A DNA stretch of 55,170 nt from Crocinitomicaceae bacterium (GTDB lineage Bacteria; Bacteroidota; Bacteroidia; Flavobacteriales_D; Parvicellaceae): the NCBI GenBank assembly GCA_002691605.1, contig NZID01000045.1, positions 2,567 through 57,736 on the forward strand, written 5' to 3'. Both the position numbers and the translations under genes were made by a program. The notes below the pieces were generated by a model. The model worked only from the letters and a program-made list of their open reading frames with translations. It was not told where the DNA came from and made no database searches. Shown one piece after another: positions 1 through 44,894 of the stretch. How positions within the stretch are numbered: position 1 is the stretch's first letter; each line of letters begins with the position of its first letter.

Positions 1-2662
1 TATAGGTCAAGGTTATTATGGTACTGTAACTCCAAATGTTATCAAAAGAAATATTTTGTGTAACCCAGGTTGGTATACAGCATACACACCTTATCAAGCG
101 GAAATAGCGCAAGGCAGACTAGAAGCTCTTTTAAATTTTCAAACCTTTGTGACCGATTTAACTGGTATGGAATTAGCAAATGCTTCACTTTTAGATGAAT
201 CTACAGCAGCTGCTGAATCAATGCTAATGTTTTATCACATGAGGACAAGATCTCAGGTAAAATCTAATGTAAATAAGTTTTTTGTTAGTGATGGTCTATT
301 TTTACAAACTAAAGAAGTATTAATTGCTAGAGCTGAACCTTTAGAAATTGAAATCATAACAGGCGATCCTGAAAAAATAGAATTAACCGATCAGTTTTTT
401 GGAGGTATTGTTCAATATCCTGATGCTTACGGAGAGATTTATGACTACAGTGAATTCACTTCTAAAGCTAAAACTTTAGAAATTCAGATTTCAGTTGTGG
501 CAGACATAATGAGTCTAGTTTTATTAAAAAGTCCCGGAAGTTGGGGCGCTGATGTTGTTGTTGGATCTACTCAAAGATTTGGAGTTCCTATGGGCTACGG
601 AGGACCTCATGCCGCCTTTTTTGCATGTAAAGAATCCCACAAGAGATACATTCCAGGAAGAATTATTGGAGTCTCTTTAGATGTACATGGAACCCCAGCA
701 TTAAGAATGGCACTTCAAACAAGAGAACAGCATATTAAAAGAGGAAAAGCAACTTCCAATATTTGTACTGCTCAAGCTCTTCTTGCAGTTATGGCCAGTA
801 TGTATGTAGTTTACCACGGACCTAAAGGTTTGAAAGAAATTGCTGAAACTATAGAGACTAAAACACTGAGATTAAAACAAGCATTAATTGAAAACGGCTT
901 TGAAGTTTCAAATTTAAACCAATTTGATACAATATGCTTTCAAGTCGATTCTTTGAAGGAGCTTAAAAGTTATCTGGAAAATAAAGAAATAAATATTGGT
1001 TACATAAATGATCATGCTACCATCTCTATTGACGAAACAACTTCCATATCTGACTTAAAATATTTAATTAACGCTCTTATTAAATTTAATAATCCTCATA
1101 AAGATTTAGAATTTAAAACCATTGAATCAAAAAGTACATTCCTTAAAAGAAGTTCAGCAATATTACAACAGAACATTTTTAATTCTTATCATTCTGAAAC
1201 TGAAATGATGAGATATATTAAAAAATTAGAAAATAAAGACCTCTCTTTAGTTCATGCAATGATATCCTTAGGCTCCTGTACTATGAAGCTAAATGCTGCT
1301 ACTGAAATGGAACCTATTACCTGGGCAAAATTTGCCAATCTGCATCCATTTACACCAGTTGACCAAACGGAAGGATATCAACAAATTTTTAATGAATTAG
1401 CCGAAGATCTTAGCGAAATAACTGGTTTTGATAAAGTTTCCCTTCAACCAAACAGTGGAGCTCAAGGAGAATACAGTGGTTTAATGGTTATTAGAGCGTA
1501 TCACATTTCTAATAATGAAGGTCATCGAAAAATTTGTCTAATTCCAACTAGTGCTCATGGAACTAATCCTGCTAGTGCAGTAATGGCAGGTATGGAGGTT
1601 GTTTTAATCAAATGTGATGAACTAGGAAATATAGATTTAAATGACCTTAAAAATAAAGTAAAAACCCATGCTGACAATCTTTCAGCGTTAATGGTTACTT
1701 ATCCTTCTACTCACGGAGTTTTTGAAGAAAATATCAAGGAAATCACTTCTATTATTCATCAATCAGGAGGACAAGTATATATGGATGGAGCCAATATGAA
1801 CGCTCAAGTAGGTCTAACATCTCCAGGTCTTATAGGTGCTGATGTTTGCCATTTAAACCTTCATAAAACTTTTGCGATACCTCATGGTGGTGGAGGTCCT
1901 GGAATGGGTCCTATTGGAGTAGCAAAACATTTATCCCCGTTTTTACCAAGTAATCCAATTATTAAAACAGGGGGAGAAAAGGGAATTAAAGCAATTAATG
2001 GTGCCCCTTGGGGAAGTGCATTAATTTTAATTATTTCTTATGGTTACATAAAACTTTTAGGTGCTGAAGGTTTAAAAAAATCTACTGAAATGGCTATTTT
2101 AAATGCAAATTATTTGAAAGCTAAATTGAAAAATTATTATAACGTACTTTATTGTGGACCAACTGGAAAAGTTGCACACGAAATGATTCTAGATTGTAGA
2201 TTATTTAAAAAAGAATCCTCTGTAGAAGTAGAAGATATAGCAAAAAGATTGATGGATTATGGATTTCATGCTCCTACAGTTAGTTTTCCAGTAGCAGGTA
2301 CTTTAATGATTGAACCTACTGAAAGTGAATCTTTAAACGAATTAAATAGATTTGCAGAGGCTATGATTAATATCAGAAAAGAAATTAACGAAATAAAGGA
2401 AGGTGTTTATGATATAGATAACAATGTATTAAAAAATGCTCCTCATACAGCCTACGAAGCAATTAATGAAAATTGGAATCACCCTTATTCTAGACAAAAG
2501 GCAGTATATCCAAATATCAATCAAGTAAATAATAAATTTTGGCCCCCAATCGGAAGAGTTGATAATGCCTATGGGGATAGAAATTTAATCTGTAATTGCC
2601 TTCCCTTGGAAAATTATGAAAAAAACATAGCAACTGTTTCCAATTTAAATGAAATATTATGA
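1..2662 (+). CDS. gcvP: Glycine dehydrogenase (decarboxylating), P-protein, 5' end outside window
   Basis: P-protein of the glycine cleavage system: PLP-dependent decarboxylation of glycine and transfer of aminomethyl to the lipoyl H-protein in the cytoplasm. The reading frame is open from base 2, so the gene begins before the window; the codons before base 56 (IGQGYYGTVTPNVIKRNI) match the conserved P-protein N-terminal region, so the TTG at 56 is not a real start. The PLP lysine lies in LNLHKTF (codon at 1865), followed by the glycine-rich loop HGGGGPGMGP. The C-terminal half and its end look complete. About 60-80 N-terminal residues are missing compared with the usual ~950. The stop overlaps the next start by 4 bases (ATGA). 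Identity is certain from family motifs. Confidence 0.97.
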   Translation, partial: IGQGYYGTVTPNVIKRNILCNPGWYTAYTPYQAEIAQGRLEALLNFQTFVTDLTGMELANASLLDESTAAAESMLMFYHMRTRSQVKSNVNKFFVSDGLFLQTKEVLIARAEPLEIEIITGDPEKIELTDQFFGGIVQYPDAYGEIYDYSEFTSKAKTLEIQISVVADIMSLVLLKSPGSWGADVVVGSTQRFGVPMGYGGPHAAFFACKESHKRYIPGRIIGVSLDVHGTPALRMALQTREQHIKRGKATSNICTAQALLAVMASMYVVYHGPKGLKEIAETIETKTLRLKQALIENGFEVSNLNQFDTICFQVDSLKELKSYLENKEINIGYINDHATISIDETTSISDLKYLINALIKFNNPHKDLEFKTIESKSTFLKRSSAILQQNIFNSYHSETEMMRYIKKLENKDLSLVHAMISLGSCTMKLNAATEMEPITWAKFANLHPFTPVDQTEGYQQIFNELAEDLSEITGFDKVSLQPNSGAQGEYSGLMVIRAYHISNNEGHRKICLIPTSAHGTNPASAVMAGMEVVLIKCDELGNIDLNDLKNKVKTHADNLSALMVTYPSTHGVFEENIKEITSIIHQSGGQVYMDGANMNAQVGLTSPGLIGADVCHLNLHKTFAIPHGGGGPGMGPIGVAKHLSPFLPSNPIIKTGGEKGIKAINGAPWGSALILIISYGYIKLLGAEGLKKSTEMAILNANYLKAKLKNYYNVLYCGPTGKVAHEMILDCRLFKKESSVEVEDIAKRLMDYGFHAPTVSFPVAGTLMIEPTESESLNELNRFAEAMINIRKEINEIKEGVYDIDNNVLKNAPHTAYEAINENWNHPYSRQKAVYPNINQVNNKFWPPIGRVDNAYGDRNLICNCLPLENYEKNIATVSNLNEIL

Positions 2663-16441: not shown

Positions 16442-17935
16442 TTAATGTTTAAAATGTCTAATTCCAGTAAAAACCATACCTATTTTATTATTATTACAAT
16501 ATTCTATTGATAAATTATCTTTTAATGAACCTCCTGGTTGAATAACAGCACTGATACCTTCTTTACCAGCGATTTCAACACAATCTGGAAAGGGGAAAAA
16601 AGCATCTGATGCCATTACTGCATCTTTCAAATTGAATTTAAATGATTTTGCTTTATTAATTGCTTGGTGTAATGCATCAACCCTTGATGTTTGTCCTGTT
16701 CCACTAGCTAATAATTGTAAATTTTTAACCAAGACAATGGTATTAGACTTTGTATGCTTTGCTATTTTATTTGCAAAAACCATATCCTTCATTTGCCTCT
16801 CAGAGGGCTGGAAATTAGTTTTTAATTCAAAAGTTTTAATCTCTTCAGTCGCAAGGTCTCTTTGCTGAATTAATATTCCATTTAAGCACGATCTTTCAAT
16901 TTTTTCTGGAAAATAGGTGTGTTTTTGTTTTAGTATAATTCTATTTTTTTTGCTTTTTAATAATTCTAAAGCTTCCTTATCATATGCTGGAGCAATAACA
17001 ACTTCACAAAACAAAGTATTTATTTCAGAAGCAGTTTCTAAGTCAATTTCTAAGTTAGATATTAAAATTCCTCCAAAAGCAGAAACAGGATCTGCTTCTA
17101 AAGCAGCTAAATAAGCTTCTTTCACATTTGATTTAGAAGCAAAACCACAGGCATTATTGTGTTTTAAGATAGCAAATGTTGGTGGAGAACTTTCAAAATC
17201 TTGCATTAGCATAATGGCTGCATCTATATCCAATAAATTATTGTAAGATACTTGTTTGCCATGTAGTTGTGAAAAAACTTTTTCTAAATCCCCACTAAAC
17301 CATCCCTTTTGGTGAGGGTTTTCACCATATCTTAATTGATTTTTTTTGTTGAAATAGTCAAAAATGGCTTTATCGTATTTACTTGACACAGAAAAAGATT
17401 CCGTTGCAAAATACTTTCTTTCCTTAAGTGAGGTAGAAGCCATTCCCTTATTAAGGAAGATTTGACTTAACTCATTATAGTGCTCTTTTTTTGAAAGAAC
17501 TGTTACATCATTAAAATTTTTGGCTGCTGCTCTTATTAGCGAAATTCCACCAATATCAATTTTTTCAATAATTTCTTCTTCACTAGATCCTAAACTTACC
17601 GTTTTTTCGAAAGGATACAAATCAACAACCACAAGATCAATTTCTGGAATAGCATATTTCTCAATTTCATATTGATCGCTTTCAATTTTTCTTTGATTTA
17701 GAATTCCACCAAATACTTTAGGATGAAGAGTTTTAACCCTTCCTCCCAAAATCGAAGGGTATTCTGTCAAATTTTCCACTGGAACAACTTCAAATCCTAA
17801 GTTTTCAATGTATTTTTGAGTTCCACCAGTAGAATAGATTACAACATCGTTCTCATTTAATAAAGAAATCAATTGCTCTAAACCCTCCTTAGAAAAAACA
17901 GAAATTAAGGCACTTTTGATTTTTTTTTTCATCAT
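16442..17935 (-). CDS. purH: Bifunctional AICAR transformylase/IMP cyclohydrolase
   Basis: Catalyses the last two steps of IMP synthesis. Residues 1-~150 form the MGS-like IMP cyclohydrolase domain (STGGT, GGRVKTLHPKVFGGIL). The rest is the transformylase domain, with RYGENPHQ at ~199 and the catalytic Lys-His in KHNNACG at ~260, then SDAFFPFPD near the end. 497 residues is close to the family's usual ~510. Two adjacent ATGs (17935 and 17932) could both serve as start. It heads the cell-shape operon, an arrangement I believe is frequent in Flavobacteriales. No -7 box was found in the 100-base spacer upstream. Confidence 0.96.
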   Translation of the reverse strand: MMKKKIKSALISVFSKEGLEQLISLLNENDVVIYSTGGTQKYIENLGFEVVPVENLTEYPSILGGRVKTLHPKVFGGILNQRKIESDQYEIEKYAIPEIDLVVVDLYPFEKTVSLGSSEEEIIEKIDIGGISLIRAAAKNFNDVTVLSKKEHYNELSQIFLNKGMASTSLKERKYFATESFSVSSKYDKAIFDYFNKKNQLRYGENPHQKGWFSGDLEKVFSQLHGKQVSYNNLLDIDAAIMLMQDFESSPPTFAILKHNNACGFASKSNVKEAYLAALEADPVSAFGGILISNLEIDLETASEINTLFCEVVIAPAYDKEALELLKSKKNRIILKQKHTYFPEKIERSCLNGILIQQRDLATEEIKTFELKTNFQPSERQMKDMVFANKIAKHTKSNTIVLVKNLQLLASGTGQTSRVDALHQAINKAKSFKFNLKDAVMASDAFFPFPDCVEIAGKEGISAVIQPGGSLKDNLSIEYCNNNKIGMVFTGIRHFKH

Positions 17936-42459: not shown

Positions 42460-43566
42460 TTGGAAGTCTTTTTTAAAGATCAATTATATACGGGAAGTAA
42501 ATCTACTTGGTATTCTAAAGAAAACAATGAAAATTTACTTTCTGATTTTCAAAAATTTTTAGATGCAAATCATGGAGAACATATTTTATGTTTTTTTTCT
42601 TATGATTTAAAAAATAATATTGAAAAATTAAAATCATCTAATTTAAATGATATCCAATTCCCACAACTATTTTGCTTTACACCAGAAAAAATTAAAAAAA
42701 CCAGCTCTATAAAGAGTGAGATAACAGCCTCCAAAGCAATAGATTTTAAAGCAGAAATCAGTAAAAAAAATTATCTGGAAAATGTTGAAAAAATTAAAAA
42801 TCATATTCAAAAAGGCGACTTTTATGAAGCCAATTATTGCTATCAATGGAAAGCCAAAAGTAAACTTCTCCAACCCAAAGCTATTTTTAATAAATTGAAA
42901 CAATTAACTCAGGCCCCATATGGGTTTTATGCTGATCTAGAAAATCATTACGTAATTTCTGCAAGTCCAGAATTATATATTAAAAAAAGAAATAATAAAA
43001 TCTATTCTAGTCCCATAAAGGGAACACAAAGAAAAGACAAGGATCCTAAGAAAGATAGATTATTAAAAAAACAGCTAGAAAATAGCTTAAAAGATCAAGC
43101 TGAAAATAATATGATTGTTGACTTGGTAAGAAATGACCTAAGTAGAATAGCAAAAAAATGTTCGGTCAAGGTAGAGGAGCTAAGAAAAGTATATTCATTT
43201 AGAAATATCCATCAAATGATTTCTACCATTTCATGTGAAATTTCAGAAAATATTAAAGTTTCAGATATTTTAAAAGCTACATTTCCAATGGGTTCTATGA
43301 CAGGAGCTCCAAAAATTAAGGTTATGGAAATTATGGAAAAATATGAGAAGTCCAAAAGAGGTTTATATTCTGGATCTTTTGGAATAATATATCCTAATGG
43401 TGATTTTGATTTTAATGTAATAATTAGAACATTAATTTATAATAAAGCAAATCATTTATTATCTTTTCATGTAGGTGGAGCTATAACAATAAATAGTTCT
43501 CCAGAATTAGAATATGAAGAAACATTAATTAAAGCAGATGCACTATTTAAGGCATGTCAAACCTAG
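42460..43566 (+). CDS. pabB: Aminodeoxychorismate synthase component I (chorismate-binding)
   Basis: A 368-residue chorismate-utilising enzyme for the folate precursor 4-amino-4-deoxychorismate. The conserved C-terminal core is present: IQKGDFYEANYCYQW, SASPELY, SSPIKGTQRKDKDPKKD, MIVDLVRNDLSR, FPMGSMTGAPKIKVMEIMEKYE and GLYSGSFG. Being shorter than TrpE and having PIKGTQ, which in PabB carries the catalytic Lys, favours PabB over TrpE or MenF. The start is TTG at 42460. It overlaps tilS by 13 bases. Confidence 0.88.
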   Translation: MEVFFKDQLYTGSKSTWYSKENNENLLSDFQKFLDANHGEHILCFFSYDLKNNIEKLKSSNLNDIQFPQLFCFTPEKIKKTSSIKSEITASKAIDFKAEISKKNYLENVEKIKNHIQKGDFYEANYCYQWKAKSKLLQPKAIFNKLKQLTQAPYGFYADLENHYVISASPELYIKKRNNKIYSSPIKGTQRKDKDPKKDRLLKKQLENSLKDQAENNMIVDLVRNDLSRIAKKCSVKVEELRKVYSFRNIHQMISTISCEISENIKVSDILKATFPMGSMTGAPKIKVMEIMEKYEKSKRGLYSGSFGIIYPNGDFDFNVIIRTLIYNKANHLLSFHVGGAITINSSPELEYEETLIKADALFKACQT

Positions 43567-44768
43567 ATTATTACATAAATAAGTATTTAAACTTCTTTAA
43601 CCATCATAAGATAAATTTAAAAAGTAATTTTTTAATTGGTGTCTCTGGCGGATTAGATTCTATGGCACTGTTGGATTTAAGTTTTAAAACTGGTTTGAAA
43701 ATTTCTGTAGCTCATGTTAATTATCAACTTCGTGGTTCAGAAAACAACCGAGAAATAAAAATAATTGAAGAGTATTGCCAAGAAAGAAAAATTAATTTTT
43801 TTATTAAAACCACAGAAATAAATAAAAATAAAAATCTCCAAAATGAAGCAAGAATTGTTAGATATCAATTTTTTAATGAGCTAATTAATCAAGAGGAATT
43901 AGACTATATTATTACTGCTCATCACCAAAATGATAATCATGAAACGTTTTTATTTAATGCATTTAGAGGCAATGGAATTAATAGTTTAAAAGGAATTCAA
44001 AAAATTAATACTATTATTTTAAGACCTGGGCTTGAATTTTCAAAAAAGGAATTGGAAGAGTATGCGCAATTAAATACTATTAATTTTAACATTGATAGCA
44101 GTAATCTAACTTCAAAATATGATAGAAACTTTATAAGAAATAAACTTTTAAAATTAGTAAGCACCCAATTTCCAAATTACGAAAAGGCTCTTTCCAATAC
44201 TATAAAATACTTAAATGAAGATTATTTACTTTTAAACTATTTGGTTAAAGAAAAACTAGAAAAGTATATTTCTGAAGAAAAAAATTACGTAAAAATTCAA
44301 TATGACTACACTATTCCATCTTATTTTTGGACTCATTATTTAAGGAGATATGGGTTTAAAAATCATCAGATCTCAAAATGGATAGAAGCCCCTTCTCAGC
44401 CTGGAAAATATATTGAAAGTGCAAATTTTCAACTTTTAAATGATAGAAATTATTGGCTTTTAAGACCCAAAAAAATGGAAAAAAATGACTTAAAAGAATA
44501 TTATCTAAATGAAAATCAAGCCATAGACTATCCTATATTTTTGTCTGGAAAGATTTCAAAAACAAGAAATATTAAAACTAGAAGTCTAAATTTTGAAAAT
44601 GTAGATTATTCTAAACTTAAATTTCCTCTGTTAATAAGAAAATGGAGAAAAGGAGATAAAATTCAACCTCTTGGAATGAAAGGATCTAAAAAAATAAGTG
44701 ATTATTTGACTGAAAGAAAAGTTCCTCTTTTTGAAAAAAAAAAATATTTATGTTCTTATTTCAAATGA
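43554..44768 (+). CDS. tilS: tRNA(Ile)-lysidine synthase, C terminus frameshifted at an A11 tract
   Basis: TilS modifies the CAU anticodon of tRNA-Ile2 with lysine, an essential step for reading AUA. The N-type ATP-pyrophosphatase motif SGGLDS is at 31-36, with AHVNYQLRG and NDNHETFLFNAFRGNG after it. The C-terminal domain (RKWRKGDKIQPLGMKGSKKISDYL) runs into GAAAAAAAAAAA (11 A, 44734-44744), after which the frame reads KYLCSYFK and stops. One A fewer gives KNIYVLISNEDIIWVIGYVISE and a stop at 44862, the expected TilS end and a total of 435 residues. So either the tract has one A too many (assembly error or slippage variant) or polymerase/ribosome slippage makes the full protein. Confidence 0.9.
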   Translation: MSNLDYYINKYLNFFNHHKINLKSNFLIGVSGGLDSMALLDLSFKTGLKISVAHVNYQLRGSENNREIKIIEEYCQERKINFFIKTTEINKNKNLQNEARIVRYQFFNELINQEELDYIITAHHQNDNHETFLFNAFRGNGINSLKGIQKINTIILRPGLEFSKKELEEYAQLNTINFNIDSSNLTSKYDRNFIRNKLLKLVSTQFPNYEKALSNTIKYLNEDYLLLNYLVKEKLEKYISEEKNYVKIQYDYTIPSYFWTHYLRRYGFKNHQISKWIEAPSQPGKYIESANFQLLNDRNYWLLRPKKMEKNDLKEYYLNENQAIDYPIFLSGKISKTRNIKTRSLNFENVDYSKLKFPLLIRKWRKGDKIQPLGMKGSKKISDYLTERKVPLFEKKKYLCSYFK

Positions 44769-44894
44769 AGATATTATTTGGGTAATTGGATATGTGATCA
44801 GCGAAAAAGTCAAAATTCGTGAAAAATCAAAAATCTATTATCACTTATTATATCAAGAATAGTTCTTTTTTATTGTTTTTTAATAACTTTTTTC

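Follow-up and report, generated by a model that had tools for sequence, protein, structure and literature searches.

Loss of the tilS reading frame at an A11 tract in the draft genome of a marine bacterium, and further genes apparently broken at long A/T tracts

Introduction

For Buchnera and Blochmannia, the original paper on transcriptional slippage that rescues frameshifts in poly(A) tracts is reportedly one by Tamas from 2008. According to passages of a paper on Blochmannia vafer, eight genes, among them dnaX, dnaG, and pth, are shifted within homopolymers in this bacterium, and full-length transcripts were put at 30% in earlier work cited there (PMC3017870), while a section of a review gives 12–50% corrected transcripts in endosymbionts (PMC5009743). 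In Buchnera, homopolymers accounted for 151 of 157 insertions and for 16 of 57 deletions, without any case of a restored frame, as far as the relevant section of PMC5574713 goes. An excerpt of PMC6260861 cites multiple insertions as the main outcome at A11 of E. coli lacZ and at A10 of Buchnera mur, and deletions as the favoured outcome when E. coli RNA polymerase transcribes A11 in vitro. An assembly flaw and slippage rescue are both known kinds of event.

The gene considered here, tilS of an uncultured marine bacterium, codes for a tRNA-modification enzyme (tRNA-Ile lysidine synthetase) and is out of frame at a tract of 11 A. Similarly to Buchnera and Blochmannia, several genes of an AT-rich genome, some of them important, are shifted at long A tracts, and the sequence downstream of the tract is intact in tilS; unlike them, the bacterium is represented by a marine metagenome-assembled genome (MAG) of 2.2 Mb, not by an insect endosymbiont, the tract is missing in ten congeners, and the case is known from assembled DNA alone. 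With homopolymer indels of metagenome assemblies it shares the longest homopolymers being hit, the unevenness between assemblies, and the involvement of genes expected to be needed, but here runs of 9 are without lesion in 820 kb. The literature searched yielded no account of poly(A) frameshifts rescued by slippage in marine or free-living Bacteroidota.

The tilS gene split at the A11 tract

The window, i.e., the whole stretch of DNA that was analysed (55,170 nucleotides, C26:2567–57736), comes from a draft genome (G000) of 2,236,066 bases in 92 contigs, 85.6% complete. The features of tilS are:

43554..44768, plus strand: tilS in the assembled frame, PP-loop domain and first half of TilS_C (TIGR02432, PF01171, and PF11734 matches)
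44734..44744, plus strand: A11 tract, loss of reading frame (sequence; at most A7 here in ten congeners)
44746..44862, plus strand: remaining TilS C-terminal domain in the other frame, stop at 44860–44862 (weak PF11734 match, congener alignment, codon usage)

Read directly, the sequence passes from G44733 through A44734–A44744 (11 A) into TATTTATG, and the open reading frame as assembled (43554–44768, stop codon at 44766–44768) codes for 404 amino acids with the C-terminal end ...FEKKKYLCSYFK. The identity of the gene given in the initial annotation holds: the N-terminal piece matches TIGR02432 (TilS_N) with 171.8 bits against a curated cut-off of 93.6 (NCBIfam) and PF01171 with 176.5 bits (cut-off 27, Pfam). 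The locus resembles TilS in its PP-loop domain, in the GVSGGLDSM motif, and in half of TilS_C being in frame, and differs in having its C-terminal domain divided between two frames. No single frame holds a complete TilS_C domain (PF11734); positions 3–35 of its 74 are matched in the 404-amino acid frame with 21.1 bits, just below the cut-off of 22, and positions 42–68 in the other frame (44746–44859) with 14.2 bits (E 0.028), a match weak by itself, yet following on from the first. The NCBIfam profiles gave no match for the piece at 44746–44859.

Codon usage in the 404-amino acid frame scores 0.30 before the tract. After it, the frame ending at 44860–44862 is coding-like (mean log-odds 0.18 over 39 codons), and neither the 404-amino acid frame (−0.01) nor the third frame (−0.05) is. 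In the other frame, IYVLISNEDIIWVIGYVISEKVKI... can be aligned with the C-terminal end of congener TilS. Since the two TilS_C halves, codon usage, and the congener alignment all fit a continuation across the tract, the split is genuine in the sequence and not due to chance, and tilS combines an indel in a long A tract (at least about 9) with an intact downstream frame. The initial annotation had claimed that tilS runs out of frame at this tract and that one A fewer restores the full protein; the former is confirmed by the sequence, the split PF11734 match, and codon usage, and the latter holds as well. About one A or T run of 11 is expected in 55 kb at 30% GC under an independent-base model; the long run itself is ordinary, and the breaking of a gene is the unusual part.

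The second-longest run of the window, T10 at 17920–17929, coincides with the beginning of an open reading frame on the minus strand (L102) and was not counted as breaking it. Among solved structures, the 464-residue TilS chain 3a2k_A aligned weakly (14.9 bits, residues 375–423) with the second part of the 404-amino acid frame, and this match was set aside.

Requirement for TilS

According to the initial annotation, a second intact tilS would remove the need for slippage, but a search of the 85.6%-complete draft with the TilS protein gave one match and no second copy. Another PP-loop match (C44, 281 amino acids) was not returned by that search.

The tRNA search of the draft, in which 150 of the 170 candidates from a first look were scored, gave 24 matches, including two tRNAs with the CAU anticodon, L056 and L065, both typed as Met by ARAGORN. 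The acceptor stem of the former is GGGCCCA/TGGGCCC, with the pairs C4–G69 and C5–G68, and an identical copy is carried by congener G007, whose other CAU tRNA resembles an initiator. By the identity rules concerning C4–G69 and C5–G68, we provisionally take the L056 tRNA to be tRNA-Ile2. A third CAU tRNA (the initiator) was not found in the 85.6%-complete draft. No tRNA-Ile(UAU) was present among the 24 matches of the draft (150 of 170 candidates scored) or in G007 (22 of 30 loci scanned, the other eight lying inside these; 150 of 198 candidates scored), and AUA accounts for 460 of the 15,860 codons in the long open reading frames of the window. TilS should be required in this bacterium because the Ile2-like CAU tRNA is kept, no tRNA-Ile(UAU) was found, and AUA codons are common. 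We infer from the single tilS, the Ile2-like tRNA, and AUA usage that the essentiality argument made earlier, linking TilS to CAU-anticodon tRNA-Ile2, applies here.

The site in related genomes

The same site in ten congeners reads EKENIY, ERRNTY, NKNNVF, or similar. Where the tilS considered here has A11, they carry an interrupted A-rich stretch, whose longest A run is seven in G007 and at most five in the other nine, with none of eight or more. In nine of the ten tilS is uninterrupted and codes for 437–442 amino acids. The comparison with related genomes, recommended in the initial annotation, thus found the tract conserved in 0 of 10 congeners and the same frameshift kept in none of them, and gave no indication that slippage is programmed here. 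Because it is absent at the site in all ten, the long A tract is a property of this species rather than a conserved programmed site.

The family was surveyed with a query that stops short of the tract, and in 35 of 39 genomes tilS was matched without a break within an open frame of 430–490 amino acids. The four exceptions are the genome considered here, G007 with its own lesion elsewhere, and the partial matches of G011, starting 8 bases from a contig end, and of G029, spanning query residues 223–390 only. In G007 (6 contigs) tilS is also broken, the frame moving by one within short A runs (L013, ca. 2418–2440, minus strand); this lesion lies near residue 90, in the catalytic domain, and is separate from the A11 site. 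No other assembly of the species was found in a contig search that gave nine relatives with 28–53% identity and may leave out near records. An exact 21-base pattern had no match among viral contigs.

Other genes apparently broken at long tracts in the draft

The draft holds 69 distinct A/T tracts of at least 10. All 69 were seen and 67 classed after application of a duplicate rule; a gene seems to be broken at 10 of the tracts, and 18 lie within a gene without loss of frame. The ten genes sharing this type of lesion, kept by eye (8 of 10 also by a uniform rule, 4 of 10 without domain evidence), are:

L003, A11: tilS (split TilS_C, codon usage)
L081, A11: FemAB-like gene (weak FemAB-like match in the second half)
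L096, A11: tail of an H+-pyrophosphatase gene (geometry and codon usage)
L099, A13: NACHT/TPR gene (geometry by eye)
L108, A10: gene of unknown family (geometry and codon usage)
L111, A10: ClpC-type gene (Clp_N, then the AAA part; Pfam)
L117, A12: HTTM/gamma-carboxylase-type gene (PF05090 3–136 and 135–256)
L119, A10: RluA-type gene (PF00849 1–98 and 99–151)
L121, A10: gene of unknown family (geometry by eye)
L132, T11: EamA transporter gene (EamA on both sides, the first half just under the cut-off)

The nine loci besides tilS lie on contigs C4, C19, C21, C36, C44, C52, C54, C58, and C71, and the breaks at L096, L099, L108, and L121 are less sure. With nine further genes that look broken at A/T tracts of at least 10, the cause is more likely general (an error in tract length, unfixed alleles, or a general tolerance of slippage) than special to tilS.

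A codon-score rule listed 13 candidates in the draft, of which six were kept (L003, L081, L096, L108, L111, and L119), while inspection by eye removed L086, L087, L088, L092, L127, and L131 as too short or as the start or end of a gene. It listed L117 only for a wrong-strand pair and left L099, L121, and L132 unlisted; these four were added from a separate look at the tracts for broken genes. Eight of ten candidates of the uniform rule were kept, L088 and L131 being dropped as probable gene starts. This rule is blind where the downstream frame is open for at least 25 codons upstream, and so misses L099 and, in congener G002, L194; L121 is also unlisted. A codon-usage scan for frame switches over 429,736 bases gave 34 overlapping pairs without ATG, of which by eye only tilS was convincing.

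Run length and sequencing noise

Shorter runs were scanned in 820,587 bases of the draft (the window and 40 further stretches). A/T runs of exactly 9 lie in frame in 69 cases, are shifted in none, and are neither in 34, and the corresponding numbers for G/C runs of 6–8 are 31, 0, and 4. Generally homopolymer-noisy sequencing was ruled out by these clean runs; because the shorter runs are clean, the sequencing is not generally poor at homopolymers. Clean runs of 9 are unlike the pattern expected of 454, Ion Torrent, or unpolished nanopore reads. Flagged A/T runs of 6, 7, and 8 number 34, 14, and 9, respectively, the last beside 319 runs of 8 in frame. Most of the flagged runs of 6–8, judged from one-line printouts, look like gene junctions, at least one (L210:15855, a run of 8) not being so placed. 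Apparent gene breaks begin at runs of 10.

Other assemblies and ambiguous bases

The census was extended to six congeners (G001, G006, G008, and G010 were left out), in which 41 tracts of G005, 31 of 37 of G002, 30 of 50 of G007, 30 of 38 of G003, 30 of 35 of G004, and 29 of 37 of G009 were examined. The G005 and G002 lists were read by eye, 16 tracts in detail, and those of G003, G004, G007, and G009 were taken as flagged by the rules, so lesions in these four may be missed. Dropped candidates comprise L171 and L174 (G005; L174 is a gene junction with ATG), L202 and L028 (G002), L230 (G007), and L274 (G003); L174, L028, and L230 were classed under both headings and are in neither count. Shifted and in-frame tracts number 3 and 13 in G002, 0 and 14 in G005, 0 and 10 in G007, 0 and 7 in G003, 0 and 8 in G009, and 1 and 5 in G004. 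Three of the four congener shifts are thus located in G002, an assembly with scattered N like the draft studied here:

L201:1143–2175, A10–A11: dihydroorotate dehydrogenase gene, pyrD type (PF01180 3–148 and 153–289)
L039:998–1745, A10–A11: trmB-type gene (PF02390 2–110 and 108–171)
L194:3–2151, A10–A11: Omp85-type gene (POTRA and Omp85 matches in the second piece only)

The fourth, in G004 (L315, ca. 1492–1510), is an A19 tract out of frame in a gene that by eye resembles one for a sigma factor.

Scattered N amount to 166 per 100 kb of fetched loci in the draft, 130 in G002, and 481 in G003, with none in G004, G005, G007, and G009; such scattered single N are read as blended strain variants. 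The draft, with 10 shifted and 18 in-frame tracts, differs from the six congeners together, with 4 and 57 from part of the tracts in five of them (p 0.001; under the uniform rule 8 and 18 vs. 3 and 57, p 0.002), and so do the three assemblies with N (13 and 38) from the four without (1 and 37; Fisher p 0.003), all these p values taking the tracts as independent and comparing groups chosen after the data were seen. The link between lesions and assembly type is suggestive. G003, which has the most N of all, has 0 shifted and 7 in-frame tracts (30 of 38 examined). Within the draft, 18 of 63 loci hold N, and these contain 2 of the 10 shifted genes, the other 8 lying in N-free stretches; strain merging as a direct cause was set aside for this absence of enrichment. 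The window has no N anywhere, so tilS itself shows no trace of merged strains. Clusters of N resembling merged strain variants were observed in contigs of the draft, one at C26:2237–2566 (L215), just outside the window, and others at L211, L217, and L218.

In the draft and G002, 12 of 13 shifts leave one base too many, the exception being L099, and the shift at L315 of G004 goes the opposite way to this majority. The excess is partly expected, as only tracts of at least 10 were examined, and this bias weakens shift direction as evidence.

Explanations for the loss of frame

The initial annotation had offered two explanations, a wrong A count in the assembly and transcriptional slippage. They remain the right pair, and a general cause is favoured over a tilS-specific one. 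We lean towards a tract-length error or an unfixed variant in the metagenome consensus, with the lesion probably not fixed in the living population. tilS would be an ordinary, needed gene of this bacterium, whose C-terminal coding region in this species would happen to hold a long, slippery A tract. The homopolymer length would have been set wrongly, or an unfixed tract-length variant would have entered the consensus, in a strain-blending metagenome assembly, and most of the cell population would have the in-frame tract length and the full protein of about 435 residues. A wrong or unfixed length would explain why needed genes are hit (the ClpC type, the RluA type, and tilS, and in G002 the pyrD, trmB, and Omp85 types, are expected to matter), why the downstream half of tilS shows no decay in congener alignment and codon usage, why it is the longest tracts that are affected, and why assemblies are not alike. 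This explanation is weakened by the location of tilS in clean sequence, by the N-free surroundings of 8 of the 10 shifted loci, and by G003 with the most N yet no shifted gene. Another weak point is that a short-read consensus is usually right at A10–A11. From the scattered N and congener G002 we would guess that the draft was produced by a pipeline like that outlined in part of PMC5769542.

Needed genes being hit, the undecayed downstream half of tilS, and the choice of the longest tracts would also be explained if A11 were real and fixed and RNA polymerase slipped on long A tracts, transcripts with one A fewer or two more restoring the frame in tilS and likewise in the other poly-A-shifted genes. 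This is a tenable, though less probable, explanation. It fits a break inside an uninterrupted A11, the 69 in-frame runs of 9 without any shifted gene in 820 kb, the ten affected genes with important ones among them, and the 8 of 10 shifted loci in N-free stretches, and it has precedents in the eight homopolymer-shifted genes of Blochmannia vafer (a passage of PMC3017870) and the 12–50% corrected transcripts of endosymbionts (a section of PMC5009743). It is opposed by the absence of the tract in all ten congeners and by the four N-free congener assemblies, with 1 shifted tract (A19) and 37 in frame. Moreover, 12 of 13 shifts with one base too many would call for transcripts one base shorter or two longer, and in vivo homopolymer slippage is mostly insertion (sections of PMC5574713 and PMC6260861). 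However, this argument from direction is not strong, because the A11 results cited in an excerpt of PMC6260861 go both ways, E. coli RNA polymerase on A11 in vitro being cited as favouring deletions.

We think it unlikely that the frameshift is real and that the 404-residue protein is made, either as a weakened but working TilS or as a sign of recent loss of function. The catalytic PP-loop domain is complete, type II TilS enzymes without CTD2 exist (part of PMC12514573), and tilS of G007 is also broken by a shift of one elsewhere; nevertheless, the TilS considered here has TilS_C and is cut inside it (positions 3–35 of 74 kept), the CAU tRNA is kept and AUA codons are common, and the downstream half is undecayed. 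Truncation is unlikely to be harmless by itself because half of TilS_C is lost and CTD2 residues are essential for lysidinylation in a type I enzyme, according to the same part of PMC12514573. Programmed ribosomal frameshifting on the A tract is very improbable in spite of the A-rich slippery sequence, since the common −1 shift is of no help, entering the third frame with its stop at 44783, so that +1 or −2 would be needed, and the tract is not conserved.

Significance

If the favoured tract-length error or unfixed variant is correct, tracts of at least 10 A can make needed genes look dead in AT-rich marine MAGs, and a single assembly can hold about ten false pseudogenes. It is a rather doubtful prospect that a MED-G20-group marine bacterium, taken as free-living, lives off transcriptional slippage, with about ten genes, several of them important, permanently shifted at A tracts of 10–13. 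Were it true, a reliance so far described for insect endosymbionts would be met here with tilS among the affected genes, and decoding would depend on polymerase infidelity, because tilS is needed for AUA decoding. The poly(A) phenomenon of Buchnera and Blochmannia would then extend to a probably free-living organism with a 2.2-Mb draft genome, and genome-wide reliance on RNA polymerase slippage outside endosymbiosis would become testable.
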